A DNA stretch of 57,787 nt from Acidobacteriota bacterium (GTDB taxonomy: Bacteria; Acidobacteriota; Terriglobia; Acidiferrales; UBA7541), in NCBI GenBank assembly GCA_023481105.1, contig JAMCWK010000016.1:1-57787 (forward strand). The letters are read 5' to 3'. A model generated the notes under the pieces. The model was given only the letters and a program-made list of their open reading frames with translations. It searched no databases and was not told the origin of the DNA. Of the stretch, positions 10,385 to 40,340 are shown piece by piece. Numbering within the stretch: the stretch's first letter is position 1; each line of letters opens with the position of its first letter. A program made the translations under genes and the position numbers.

Positions 10385-10398
10385 CGGATGGAATCGAG

Positions 10399-10456
10399 AA
10401 GGCGATGGAGTTCGCCGAAACCGTCCCGGCAAAAAACGCCGGGACTGATGACTCCT
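10399..10456 (+). promoter_or_regulatory. Fluoride riboswitch (crcB motif)
   Basis: The aptamer shows the hallmark pieces in order. GGCGATGGAGTTCGCC is a hairpin carrying the conserved GAUGG and GUUC. GAAACCGTCCCGG and CGCCGGGAC form the next stem. The conserved TGATGACTCCT closes it and overlaps the terminator. Fluoride binding is known to stabilise this pseudoknotted fold and prevent formation of the downstream terminator. The gene controlled is crcB, 65 bases downstream, which agrees with the family's role. Confidence 0.95.
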
Positions 10457-10485
10457 GGCCGCCGGGCGGCGCCCAGGAGTTTTTT
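10452..10485 (+). terminator. Riboswitch-controlled intrinsic terminator
   Basis: CTCCTGG and CCAGGAG flank a CGCC/GGCG inner stem, followed by six T. The 5' arm shares CTCCT with the aptamer's 3' end, so aptamer and terminator are mutually exclusive. Confidence 0.9.
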
Positions 10486-34787: not shown

Positions 34788-34854
34788 TATCGTCATTCCA
34801 ATTGACTTCCGCAGAAGGCGTTCGTAGCATCGCCGCGTAAGTTGGGAGTTGCCC

Positions 34855-37533
34855 ATGAACGCCCTCCGCGTATTCCGCCTGTGTAAGCGTGTGTCGCTGT
34901 TTTCTCTTGCGGCAGCCAGTCTTGTTGCGCTGCCCTTCGGGAGGCAACTCTCCGCGCAAGAGCCCGCTCCCGCTGCGCCTGCGGCCATTCCCCGCTTCGA
35001 ATTGCCCTCGAGCGGACTCGACTGGAAAGCTCCCGTTCACCCGCTGAAATTTTTCGACGCCACCGGCCATCGCGCGGGGGTCTTCGGCAAGCAGACCGGC
35101 CAGTACGAAGCGTGGATTTATCCCATCAAGGTGCTGCACGGCCTGCGGCTGGAGTTCCGTCAGGAGGGCATGCCGGAGCCGGTGCGTGGCGAAAATTATC
35201 TCGAATATCTCATCGCGCGGCCGGAATCCACCACGCTGGTGTACGTCCACCCGCGCTTCACCGTGCGGCAAATCATCTGGACGCCGCTCGACGAGCCCGC
35301 CATCGTCAACTTTTTCGAAGTGGACTCCGACAAGCCGCTGGCTATCACCGTGAAATTTGTTCCCGACTTCAAGCCCATGTGGCCCGCGTCGCTCGGCGGG
35401 CAGTACACCTATTGGATGGCGGAGGAAAAAGCCTTCGGCATCACCGACGGCACGAGCAAGCCCACCGCCGTCGTCGGCTCGCCCAGCGTCGGCGCATTCA
35501 CCGAGCACATGGACCACTCCATGGTCGGCGGCGAAATGCTGCTGCAACTCCGCGTGGAGCCCGAGCAGGCGCGCAAAACAATTCCTGCGCTCGTGGTGAC
35601 GCTGAATATGGAATCTGCGAAAAAAGCGCGAGAGACTTACGCGAGCGTGCTCGCTCACGCGCGCGAACTCTATGAGTCGCGCGTGAAGTATCACAAGGAT
35701 TTTCTCGCGCGCACTCTCACCATCGAAACGCCCGACGCGGAGCTGAACCGCGCGTTCACCTGGGCCAAGGTCGCCATTGATGCCGGCTGGGTCTGCCACG
35801 AAAAAATGGGCTGCGGGCTCGTCGCCGGCTACGGCCCCGCAGGCGATTACGAGCGGCCCGGCTTTGCGTGGTGGTTCGGCGGCGACGCACTGATGGCCTC
35901 GTGGGCCATGCTCGATTACGGCGATACGCAGGGCGCGCTACAGGTGCTGCGCTTCCTGAAAGCGCGCCAGCGCGCCGACGGAAAGATGATGCACGAAATG
36001 ACCCAGAGCGTGGACCTCGTGGACTGGTTCGGCAAATACGGCTTCGCCTACTACCACGCCGACACCACGCCGATGTACATCTACAGCGTCGCGGAATACT
36101 GGCGCCGCACCGGCGACAAGAAATTTCTCGAAGAGTTCTGGCCCTCGGTGAAAAAAGCCTACGAATGGTGCCTCACCACCGTGGACCCCGCCGACGGCTT
36201 GATGGACAACACCAAAGCCGGATTGGCCGCCGTCGAAGTCGGCCCCCTCCGCGGCAAAGTCACCAAGGATATCTACCTCGAAGGGTTCTGGCTGGCGGGG
36301 CTGGGCGGAGTTTGGGACTTGGCGTTGACGGGAACCAAAGACTTTAAACTCCATGAAGATGCCAAAGTCCGAGCGGTCAAAGCGAGCCAAACGATTGAGG
36401 AAAAATGGTGGGAGCCCGACGGGAATTATTTTGCCTTTGGAGTGGACGGCGAAGGCAAGCGCGTGAAAATGGCAGGTATCTGGTCTGCGGTAATGCTTGG
36501 ATTGGGAGCGTTCGCAATTCCAGCGGAGAAAAGAATGACGGGTGCGGAGATTTTTGCGCGACCCGAACTTGCTACGGACTGGGGAATGCGCTGGATCTCC
36601 GACAAAGATAAGCTTTACGATCCTGTCAGCTACAACAATGGAACCGCGTGGCCATTCATGACCGGCATGGTGGCGATGGCGCAGTACAAACAAGGACACC
36701 CCATCGCCGGCTTTGCAACTGTCTCCTCACTTGTGCAACTCACCGGGTCACAATCGCCTGGGGCGCTACCCGAACACATGAACGGCAATCGGAATATCCC
36801 AGGGGCACGTTCGGTCCCTCACCAACTCTTCTCCTCCGTTGGACTTGTTCTGCCCACCACCGCGCGCATCCTGGGTTTCACCACCGACGGCTCTGGCCAA
36901 GTGCTGAACGTCTTCCCCAATTTGCCGGCAGATTGGCACACGGTTCGCTTCCATCGCTTTCCGGTTGGCCGTGCAATTGTAAGTGGGAGCATCGAACAAT
37001 CGCCCGGCAGAATGAAAATCCAATTGATCTGTGCAGGGAGCAGCTTTCTGATGGGCAAAGTTGGGTTTCCAATTCCGGCGGGGGCGAGAGTAAAACACGT
37101 GTCGGTGAATGGGAAACCTCGGAGTGCAGACTCTTATTCTTTTCAAAGAACCCACAACTTCCCTGTAGTCCTCGAAAGAGGACTCTGTGAGGGGCTGAAT
37201 ACGGAACTGATTGAACGAACAGAGATAAGTGTCGAATACGAAGGCGGCGTCGGCATTGTGCCACCGATACCACAGCCGGAGCCGGGGGACCGCACGACTT
37301 CGCTGAAAATTATTCGCGTCGATCACAATCCAGAAATGGCGCCGCGCGAAATCAATTTGACGCTGGCTGGCCTCGGTGGACGAACCTACACGCTCGATTT
37401 GGTCACGACGGAGCCGAAGCTAGTCGCCGAAGGCGCGACGGTGAAGAAGTCGGAAAACGGTTATCGGTTGGAGATCTCTTTCGAAGGCCCGGAGAACGAA
37501 TATGTCACGCGACAAATCCGTTTGCGGTGGTGA
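34855..37533 (+). CDS. Exported glycoside hydrolase, debranching-enzyme-like (alpha/alpha)6 barrel
   Basis: The 892-residue product has a signal peptide (residues 12-32). A beta-sandwich N-terminal half to about residue 270 is followed by an (alpha/alpha)6 barrel. RPGFAWWFGGDALMASWAML and HEMTQSVDLVDWFGKYGFAYYHADTTPMYI resemble the catalytic region of amylo-alpha-1,6-glucosidase/GH63-like enzymes. ALPEHMNGN and PHQLFSSVGLVLP appear further on. A C-terminal beta domain ends the protein. DNA at 36310-37330 is less GC-rich than either side while the frame stays open. ATG at 34855 is preferred to TTG at 34849. The GH31 gene overlaps its 3' end. Confidence 0.85.
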   Translation: MNALRVFRLCKRVSLFSLAAASLVALPFGRQLSAQEPAPAAPAAIPRFELPSSGLDWKAPVHPLKFFDATGHRAGVFGKQTGQYEAWIYPIKVLHGLRLEFRQEGMPEPVRGENYLEYLIARPESTTLVYVHPRFTVRQIIWTPLDEPAIVNFFEVDSDKPLAITVKFVPDFKPMWPASLGGQYTYWMAEEKAFGITDGTSKPTAVVGSPSVGAFTEHMDHSMVGGEMLLQLRVEPEQARKTIPALVVTLNMESAKKARETYASVLAHARELYESRVKYHKDFLARTLTIETPDAELNRAFTWAKVAIDAGWVCHEKMGCGLVAGYGPAGDYERPGFAWWFGGDALMASWAMLDYGDTQGALQVLRFLKARQRADGKMMHEMTQSVDLVDWFGKYGFAYYHADTTPMYIYSVAEYWRRTGDKKFLEEFWPSVKKAYEWCLTTVDPADGLMDNTKAGLAAVEVGPLRGKVTKDIYLEGFWLAGLGGVWDLALTGTKDFKLHEDAKVRAVKASQTIEEKWWEPDGNYFAFGVDGEGKRVKMAGIWSAVMLGLGAFAIPAEKRMTGAEIFARPELATDWGMRWISDKDKLYDPVSYNNGTAWPFMTGMVAMAQYKQGHPIAGFATVSSLVQLTGSQSPGALPEHMNGNRNIPGARSVPHQLFSSVGLVLPTTARILGFTTDGSGQVLNVFPNLPADWHTVRFHRFPVGRAIVSGSIEQSPGRMKIQLICAGSSFLMGKVGFPIPAGARVKHVSVNGKPRSADSYSFQRTHNFPVVLERGLCEGLNTELIERTEISVEYEGGVGIVPPIPQPEPGDRTTSLKIIRVDHNPEMAPREINLTLAGLGGRTYTLDLVTTEPKLVAEGATVKKSENGYRLEISFEGPENEYVTRQIRLRW

Positions 37534-40300
37534 AATTGTAGCCCGCGTCTTTAGACGCGGGGGGTTTGCTTATGTAGCGCCCGGCTTTAGCCGGGCATCC
37601 GACGATCACGCTGCTCGCACGCGATCACGCCATGCCGCGCTAAAGCGCGCCGCTACAGCCGCTATTTGCCTGCTTCTTGCGCTTCTTTTTCTGCAAGCGA
37701 CGCCTCTGGCGGCGCAGCAGAAAAACGATCCCGTCGCCGATCCGAAAGCCGTCGTCGTCAGCGGCAACGCGCGCTTCACCATCCTCACGCCGCAACTCAT
37801 CCGCATGGAATGGGCCGAAGACGGCAAGTTCGAAGACCACGCCTCGCTCGTCTTCATCAACCGCCGCCTGCCCGTGCCCGCAGCTACCATCGAGCAACGG
37901 GGCGCAATCATGCATGTAAGTACGGAGAAGCTCGGCCTCAGCTACAGCTACGGAAACGTGCCCTTCTCCTCGGAAAACTTAAAAGTCGAATTCAAGCTCA
38001 ACGGGGAAAAGGTAATGTGGACTCCGGGCATGGAGGACACCGGCAACCTCGGCGGCACGATTCGCACCCTCGACGGCGTAAAGGGCTCGACGCCGCTTGG
38101 CGCGGGCCTCATCTCCCGCGACGGCTGGGTGCTCATTGACGACAGCGAGAGCCCGCTCTTCGACAACTCCGACTGGCCCTGGGTGATGCCGCGTCGCGAA
38201 GGCAAGCGGCAGGATTGGTACCTCTTCGCCTACGGCCACGATTACAAGCAAGCGCTCGCCGATTACACGCGTGTCGCCGGAAAAATTCCCTTGCCGCCGC
38301 GTTTCGCTTTCGGCACGTGGTGGTCGCGCTATTGGGCGTACACCGACACAGAATTCGAGGAGCTCGTCCGCGGCTTTCAGCAGCACGACATTCCGCTCGA
38401 TGTGCTGGTCATCGACATGGACTGGCACCCCACCTTCGGCGTGAAGTGGTGGGAAAACAAAAAAGACCAGTCGGGTCACACACTTGGCTGGACAGGTTAC
38501 ACGTGGAACAAAACCTATTTCCCCGACGCGCCGAAATTTCTTGCGTGGACGCACCAGCAGGGCCTGAAGACCACGCTGAACATGCATCCCGCCTCCGGCG
38601 TGCAGCCGCACGAGGAACAGTATCCGGAGATGGCCCGCGCCATGGGCATTGACCCCGCCACGCAGAAGTACGTGCCCTTCGACATCACCGACAAAAAATT
38701 CGCCGAAAACTATTTCAAAATTCTCCATCACCCGCTGGAAAAACAGGGCATTGATTTCTTCTGGCTCGATTGGCAGCAGGAGCACAAAACCAGCGTAGCC
38801 GGCGTGAATCCCACGTGGTGGCTCAACTACACGCACTTCACGGACATGGAGCGCCGCGGCAAGCGTCCGCTGCTTTTTCATCGCTGGGGCGGCTTGGGCA
38901 ATCACCGTTATCAAATCGGTTTCAGCGGCGACACGATTGCCGTCTGGGATTCGCTCGCCTTCCAGCCGTACTTCACCGCCACCGCCGCCAACGTCGGCTA
39001 TGGCTACTGGAGTCACGACATCGGCGGGCACATGCGCGCGAATCTCGGCGCCAAACCCGCGGCCGGCGTGCCGCAGGACCCCGATTATCCCGAGCTGTAC
39101 ACGCGCTGGATTCAGTTCGGCGTGTTCAGTCCCATCTTGCGCACGCACACCACCAAGGACCCGCGCTCCGAGCGCCGCATCTGGGCCTATCCCGCCGAAT
39201 ACGCCGCGGCCATGCGCGACGCCTTCCTGCTGCGCTACGCGCTGATCCCCTACATCTACACCGCCGCGCGCGCCGCCTACGACACTGGCCTTTCCATCTG
39301 CCGTCCGCTTTATTACGACTACCCCGAAGCCGCCGAGGCGTACGAATTCAAGAATGAATATCTATTCGGCAGCGACATGCTCGTCGCGCCAGTAGCCACG
39401 GCCGTCAGCGAAGAAAATCTTCTTGCGAAGAAATCCATCTGGTTGCCACCGGGCACTTGGATTGAGTGGTTCACCGGCACGCGGCTCGAGGGCCCCGCGA
39501 AAATTGAGCGCACCTTCACGCTCAACGAAATTCCCGTGTACGTGAAGGCCGGCGCCATCGTGCCCATGCAGCCCAAAATGCGCAACACCGGCGAAAAACC
39601 GGTGGACCCGCTCATCCTCACAATTTTTCTGGGCGATTCAGGCGAGACGCGCGTGTACGAGGACGCTGGCAACTCGCCCGGTTATCAGGCGAATGAATTC
39701 GCGCGCACCACTGTGCGCCACTCGTTGCTCGCTGACGGCACACGCAAAATTGAAATTTTTCCTGTGGAAGGCAGCTTTCCCGGAATGCTCACCGAGCGCG
39801 GTTATGAAATCCGACTGCCGATGACACTCCCTCCGGTCAATGTGCGCACGAATGGCGCAAACATCTCCTACGCCGCCGACGCCGCCACTCCCGGCTGGCG
39901 CTACGATGGGGATACGCTCACCACGATTATTTCCGTGCCGAAGACGCGCGTAAATCAAAAAGTGGAAATTCTCGTGAAGTTGCCTTCCGCGCCCGCGGAG
40001 TTGCTCGACGGCGTTCCCGGAAAACTCACACGCCTGCGCGCGGCGATGGATATTTTGAACACGTCCTGGCCGCGTGGCTGGTCGCCGGACATTCTGATTG
40101 ACGCGGCGCAAGCCGGCCGGCGCATTACGCTCGATCCCGCCTTGGCGCAAGCCGAGCTGCAAAAACTTCAGCGCGACTTCCCCACCATCATCGAAGCCAT
40201 CGGCACTATGGATGTGGACTGCGCAGCGCAGGTCCGCGCGCTGGGCCACCTCGGCCGCTCCGCTACTTGCGTCCCCGCGCTAAAATCCGAAGCACCTTAG
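37502..40300 (+). CDS. Exported GH31 alpha-glucosidase/xylosidase-like enzyme
   Basis: The only usable start upstream of the signal peptide is ATG 37502, overlapping the previous gene by 32 bases and giving 932 residues. Residues 13-52 are encoded by three hairpin repeats. The signal peptide (AICLLLALLFLQATPLAAQQ) begins near residue 54. The GH31 barrel shows VLVIDMDWHPTFG, the nucleophile Asp in FFWLDWQQE (about residue 422) and the acid/base Asp in GFSGDT (about 477), then YSHD-like YWSHDIGGH. It should cleave terminal alpha-glucosides or xylosides outside the membrane. Confidence 0.88.
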   Translation: MSRDKSVCGGEIVARVFRRGGFAYVAPGFSRASDDHAARTRSRHAALKRAATAAICLLLALLFLQATPLAAQQKNDPVADPKAVVVSGNARFTILTPQLIRMEWAEDGKFEDHASLVFINRRLPVPAATIEQRGAIMHVSTEKLGLSYSYGNVPFSSENLKVEFKLNGEKVMWTPGMEDTGNLGGTIRTLDGVKGSTPLGAGLISRDGWVLIDDSESPLFDNSDWPWVMPRREGKRQDWYLFAYGHDYKQALADYTRVAGKIPLPPRFAFGTWWSRYWAYTDTEFEELVRGFQQHDIPLDVLVIDMDWHPTFGVKWWENKKDQSGHTLGWTGYTWNKTYFPDAPKFLAWTHQQGLKTTLNMHPASGVQPHEEQYPEMARAMGIDPATQKYVPFDITDKKFAENYFKILHHPLEKQGIDFFWLDWQQEHKTSVAGVNPTWWLNYTHFTDMERRGKRPLLFHRWGGLGNHRYQIGFSGDTIAVWDSLAFQPYFTATAANVGYGYWSHDIGGHMRANLGAKPAAGVPQDPDYPELYTRWIQFGVFSPILRTHTTKDPRSERRIWAYPAEYAAAMRDAFLLRYALIPYIYTAARAAYDTGLSICRPLYYDYPEAAEAYEFKNEYLFGSDMLVAPVATAVSEENLLAKKSIWLPPGTWIEWFTGTRLEGPAKIERTFTLNEIPVYVKAGAIVPMQPKMRNTGEKPVDPLILTIFLGDSGETRVYEDAGNSPGYQANEFARTTVRHSLLADGTRKIEIFPVEGSFPGMLTERGYEIRLPMTLPPVNVRTNGANISYAADAATPGWRYDGDTLTTIISVPKTRVNQKVEILVKLPSAPAELLDGVPGKLTRLRAAMDILNTSWPRGWSPDILIDAAQAGRRITLDPALAQAELQKLQRDFPTIIEAIGTMDVDCAAQVRALGHLGRSATCVPALKSEAP
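37538..37655. repeat. Cluster of three GTAGC-type hairpins inside a coding start
   Basis: The three elements are CCGCGTCTTTAGACGCGGG at 37542-37560, CCCGGCTTTAGCCGGG at 37580-37595 and, inverted, GCCGCGCTAAAGCGCG at 37634-37649 (flank CCGCTAC). All share a TTTAG loop and a GTAGC-type flank with 30355-30434 and 40305-40340. They sit between the end of one gene and the signal peptide of the next. Confidence 0.8.
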
Positions 40301-40304
40301 CAAT

Positions 40305-40340
40305 GTAGCGCCGGCCTTCAGGCCGGCACAAATCCGGCAT
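40305..40340. repeat. GTAGCGCCGG-type hairpin element
   Basis: GTAGCG is followed by CCGGCCTTCAGGCCGG and then a second CCGGCAT. It lies just after the GH31 stop, about 30 bases before the tRNA. Confidence 0.75.

Follow-up and report, generated by a model that had tools for sequence, protein, structure and literature searches.

Enterobacterial REP and BIME elements are short palindromes located between consecutive genes of operons, often as opposed pairs, and may form hairpins in the mRNA. GTAG-tagged palindromes of 20-40 bp that are associated with RAYTs (GTAG-class REPs) have been described inside open reading frames and at N-termini in Opitutus terrae, Thauera and others (Di Nocera et al. 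2013, PMC3733652). Clusters of these REPs code for 43-82 residues, their GTAG end often gives a TAG stop to flanking ORFs, and most N-terminal cases were put down to errors of start annotation, the real start being further downstream (PMC3733652). The Rickettsia palindromic elements RPE-1 to RPE-6 lie in frame in protein genes, with N-termini reported to be expressed (cited in PMC3733652).

The window analyzed here, a stretch of 57,787 nucleotides from an Acidobacteriota bacterium (assembly GCA_023481105.1, contig JAMCWK010000016.1), contains palindromes of this kind between two glycoside hydrolase genes. The features of the locus are as follows.

34849-37533, plus strand: upstream secreted glycoside hydrolase-like gene (GH116/MGH1-like; Pfam PF22422, PF04685)
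37491-37494, plus strand: GGAG, a Shine-Dalgarno-like word (by sequence) 7 nt before ATG 37502
37502-37504, plus strand: ATG, the sole canonical in-frame start before the signal peptide
37502-40300, plus strand: GH31 glycoside hydrolase ORF (by Pfam), 932 aa from ATG 37502
37538-37563, plus strand: REP1, GTAGCCCGCGTCTTTAGACGCGGGGG, GTAGCCCGCG subtype, read V-A-R-V-F-R-R-G
37574-37598, plus strand: REP2, GTAGCGCCCGGCTTTAGCCGGGCAT, read V-A-P-G-F-S-R-A
37599-37631, plus strand: spacer between REP2 and REP3; genome matches cover the REPs only
37632-37656, minus strand: REP3, GTAGCGGCGCGCTTTAGCGCGGCAT, the exact family consensus
37658-37720, plus strand: hydrophobic core and cleavage region of the GH31 signal peptide, AAICLLLALLFLQATPLAAQQ (hydropathy, alignment)
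40305-40329, plus strand: REP4, 4 nt past the GH31 stop; the same site is occupied in the sister species G002

REP1 to REP3 are placed between the stop codon of the upstream gene (37531-37533) and the hydrophobic core at 37658, the first residue of which is residue 53 from ATG 37502 and lies 2 bases past REP3. As in REP/BIME loci, these palindromes are short and lie between consecutive genes. However, REP/BIME elements are outside coding sequence, whereas the GH31 REPs extend over the start of the gene that follows, and folding of the RNA of 37480-37700 did not find unusual stability of the leader (MFE -84.4 kcal/mol, z = -0.84). The Rickettsia elements are likewise palindromic repeats in frame, N-termini included, but RPE-1 exceeds the GH31 repeats in length and has no sequence relationship to them; the GH31 repeats are GTAG REPs of 25-26 bp, and the genome encodes a RAYT. 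The GTAG tag, the RAYT association and the N-terminal position are shared with the intragenic REPs of Di Nocera et al. (PMC3733652); unlike most N-terminal cases of that study, GH31 lacks a downstream start, and its orthologues indicate that the ancestral start has been lost. Elsewhere in the window, 10392-10464 carries a fluoride riboswitch (crcB motif, RF01734, 48.5 bits).

GTAG-class REPs are recognized by GTAG at the 5' end and an imperfect palindrome of 20-40 bp behind it; they are also expected to be dispersed in many copies, mainly intergenic. The locus hairpins are units of 25-26 bp, made up of GTAG and a palindrome with a TTTA or TTCA loop, and are GTAG-class REPs in a genome that also encodes a RAYT. 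In the window, GTAGCN{5,11}TTYAG matched five times compared to 0.39 expected, and no shuffle reached five. The genome (G000), in which REP placement relative to genes was surveyed by ORFs only, contains 72 dispersed GTAGCN{5,11}TTTAG sites, nearly all of them the fixed 17-mer GTAGCGSCSSSCTTTAG. This fixed form occurs 57 times in G002 (controls, 0), 13 times in the incomplete G001 and 0-17 times in nine other genomes (controls, 0-1); across the family, the count drops as distance from the source species grows. Four Y1_Tnp genes are present in the genome. The RAYT on contig C61 passes NF047646, the NCBI model for REP-associated tyrosine transposases (105.7 bits, cut-off 80), is flanked by inverted REPs, as expected of a cognate RAYT, and has its own stop codon supplied by the GTAG of the next REP. 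In this REPtron (L127:3369-4330) the RAYT between inverted REPs is followed by an array of REPs spaced about 40-60 bp, and the ORF upstream of the RAYT likewise ends on a TAG from GTAG.

A prior sequence-only reading of this DNA had named ATG 37502 as the sole start before the GH31 signal peptide. It is indeed the only ATG, GTG or TTG in frame there; the next canonical start in frame, ATG 37805, lies past the signal peptide. The three hairpins are also read through in the GH31 frame without stops as claimed, REP1 and REP2 in plus and REP3 in minus orientation, within a frame that is open over 37445-40300. They were said to encode residues 13-52, which holds for residues ~13-21, 25-33 and 44-52; the spacers of 3 and 10 residues are not part of the hairpins, and that at 37599-37631, with no second copy found in the genome, is probably native to the GH31 5' region. 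REP2 is read in the frame of the intragenic REPs found elsewhere in the genome. REP3 is read as H-A-A-L-K-R-A-A-T and encodes the K-R pair before the hydrophobic core, the source of the basic residues of the n-region. The predicted leader, residues 1-52 from ATG 37502, includes the peptides GGFAYVAPGFSR and HAALK. Of the three reading frames, one is free of stops in a plus-oriented REP and two are in a minus-oriented REP, and all three REPs would be open by chance in about 7% of cases. Therefore, the open passage through REP1-REP3 is only mildly surprising and is not strong evidence of selection.

The further claim, that the signal peptide carries an extra leader of ~50 residues, gains from the GGAG word and from a precedent in the same genome (L153, below), but this ATG is embedded in the conserved end of the upstream gene, and its use as the start is only plausible. 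GGAG sits in the codons for 'PEN', at a two-residue insertion missing from orthologues of the upstream protein, and a comparable word precedes 7-9% of all ATGs in the window. The conserved C-terminus of the upstream gene shares 32 nt with the GH31 ORF, and orthologue C-termini can be aligned with the GH116/MGH1-like product through the last residue. ATG 37502 may be a chance start; on sequence grounds, translation of GH31 from it is plausible.

Orthologues of GH31 were collected from one genome per species and by a phylum search, with identities of 79% (L031), 75% (L032, L057) and lower for others, and of 66% for L097 from the phylum search. In the 14 aligned over the N-terminus, 24-42 residues precede the PVADP motif compared to 76 in the window ORF; the MAFFT alignment splits some of their start residues, and residue counts before PVADP were used, not start columns. 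Their n-regions have 3-19 residues, against 52 in the window ORF, and a net charge of +1 to +3 in every case. The same long N-terminus without repeats, which the sequence-only reading had named as counting against it, was found in none of the 14. Because the orthologues start 24-42 residues before PVADP, the ancestral GH31 start and n-region would have been on or beside REP3. The proposal that inserted elements displaced the original start is well supported by this comparison, since the elements are mobile-type REPs and the orthologues start at REP3's place without the leader. In contrast, a 52-residue n-region falls outside those of all the orthologues, which counts against translation from ATG 37502. 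The 1.44 Mb of G002 sampled yielded no cleanly empty REP site: compared sites were shared, replaced or diverged, most of them occupied by a REP, by a diverged copy or by another insert. We therefore infer insertion at this exact GH31 place from the orthologues.

In the GH31 orthologue of a gp7 acidobacterium (L057), an opposed hairpin pair of another kind (GTGGAGCCGACTCTCAGTCGGCTC ... GCTAC, L057:2873-2922) lies directly upstream of the GTG start, which is intact; this interval has thus tolerated such elements more than once.

The REPs were also excised by script in eight combinations. Removal of both REP2 and REP3, whether REP1 is kept or not, brings TTG 37566 in frame, and the resulting product, (M)LIRRSRCSHAITPAAICLLLALL..., has 38 residues before PVADP, within the orthologue range. 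This is suggestive of TTG 37566 as the original GH31 start, with the edges of the elements uncertain and an appreciable probability of an in-frame start by chance. Excision of 37574-37656 as one 83-bp unit also brings TTG 37566 in frame, and was set aside as a basis because the spacer inside it is unique.

REP insertion may have destroyed the start and left GH31 a young silent pseudogene, with the open frame back to ATG 37502 coincidental. We regard this as possible, if on balance unlikely. There is no canonical start near the signal peptide, and a priori a ~7% passage through three REPs is not extreme. Gene order on either flank of the locus agrees with that of G002 (thiC, metallophosphoesterase and SPFH genes; tRNA-Val and metH). 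G002 is without a segment comprising the M20 peptidase and GH116-like genes and the bulk of GH31; of GH31, ~230 bp of the 3' end is left at the syntenic site, adjoining shared REPs (L123:7085-7278, contig C64). As GH31 is mostly lost in G002, this comparison indicates that the genus can do without the gene and keeps a pseudogene in consideration; the gene may be dying or silenced here. However, all 932 of 932 codons are open, and the TIM-barrel and C-terminal domains are both present at full length (PF01055, E=1.2e-63, 216 bits; PF21365, 75.5 bits; PF17137, 53 bits). An orthologue identity of 79% further points to long past selection, although it is unable to date a recent loss.

The REP after GH31 is common to both species (window 40305-40329; G002, L123:7282-7365). 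In G002 a second REP precedes the shared one, and a further palindrome is nested in the tip of the latter.

A non-standard start near 37680 had been offered as an alternative. The in-frame candidates just past REP3 are ATT 37664 and CTG 37670, and with either the REPs would be 5' untranslated structure only. Such an arrangement has parallels, as a REP lies 5 nt upstream of the normal start of the C61 RAYT and another a few bases before that of a queE-like gene, and Di Nocera et al. (PMC3733652) hold most N-terminal REPs to be extragenic, with the true start downstream. Nevertheless, neither candidate is preceded by a Shine-Dalgarno word, starts at ATT and CTG are rare, and both would strip the n-region of all basic residues, compared to a charge of at least +1 in every aligned orthologue. 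We therefore consider a non-AUG start improbable.

REPs in reverse orientation show ATG-NNN-NNN-TAA, and the window at 37632-37643 reads ATGCCGCGCTAA, a three-codon mini-ORF outside the GH31 frame. ATG 37632 was accordingly rejected as a start in the sequence as it stands. Were a base missing through an assembly or sequencing error, this ATG inside REP3, one base out of frame and running straight into TAA, could be the true start. Yet REP3 matches other genome copies over its full length without an indel, and synteny with G002 extends to either side of the locus, making such an error very improbable.

In-frame REPs also occur within homology-confirmed genes of this genome, including lysA, hisS, a Mur ligase, a tricorn-like S41 protease, an enoyl-CoA hydratase/3-hydroxyacyl-CoA dehydrogenase gene, a beta-lactamase/NamZ ORF and others. 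Coding by REPs is thus plausible here from the sequences, and the GH31 case itself hinges on the start used. In a loop of hisS (L150) an opposed REP pair is present, and the sister species (L234) has an unrelated TCAGAAGTCAGAAATC-type repeat insert in the same place. At the in-frame REP of lysA (diaminopimelate decarboxylase, L135:4853-6424), the sister (L176) has a shorter REP-like insert.

The best precedent for REP3 of GH31 is an exported Sortilin/Vps10-like protein (L153:3881-3990, contig C3), in which a minus-oriented REP lies in the signal-peptide n-region and is read in the same frame as REP3. From ATG 3881 the protein reads MKSILSRAVKN-AALKGGAT-LLVLSLCIAAGNVGAQ, the signal peptide beginning MKSILSRAVKN-AALKGGAT-LLVLSL. 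The G002 homologue (L259, contig C48) has a longer palindrome at this spot, with the same conserved start and the frame kept, and the G014 homologue is without a REP. The minus-orientation frame, A-A-L-K-x-x-A-T, would give a short basic stretch that could replace or extend an n-region. REPs could even be recurrent donors of signal-peptide n-regions, with GH31 and L153/L259 as independent captures and the GH31 start borrowed from upstream, a generalization that we find rather doubtful.

Among the readings of the start we rank ATG 37502 first, silencing second and a non-AUG start third. That REPs overwrote the GH31 start and n-region, and that GH31, if expressed, starts at ATG 37502 with a REP-encoded leader, we judge to have an about even chance of being correct. 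In the proposed order of events, GTAG-class REPs, which are non-autonomous and would be moved as single strands by RAYT transposases, piled up between the two glycoside hydrolase genes and may have replaced the GH31 start codon and positively charged n-region. Being read in stop-free frames, they would have kept the frame open as far upstream as ATG 37502, within the preceding gene. If expressed, GH31 would be translated from there through the overlap, and the product, presumably exported, would carry a REP-encoded leader of ~50 residues ahead of a hydrophobic core that is otherwise normal; the n-region would owe its K-R pair to REP3. This leader is most likely without a function of its own.

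REPs inside genes and at N-termini were already catalogued in 2013; GH31 is an informative example of this kind, set apart by the lack of a downstream start. As the GH31 REPs appear to have removed a gene's start, they cannot be set aside in the usual way for N-terminal REPs, as products of mis-annotation. RAYT-associated repeats may remodel or kill secreted proteins, and GH31 illustrates how. Together, the GH31 and L153 cases in one genome offer a concrete way to test for translation and export of residues encoded by REPs.
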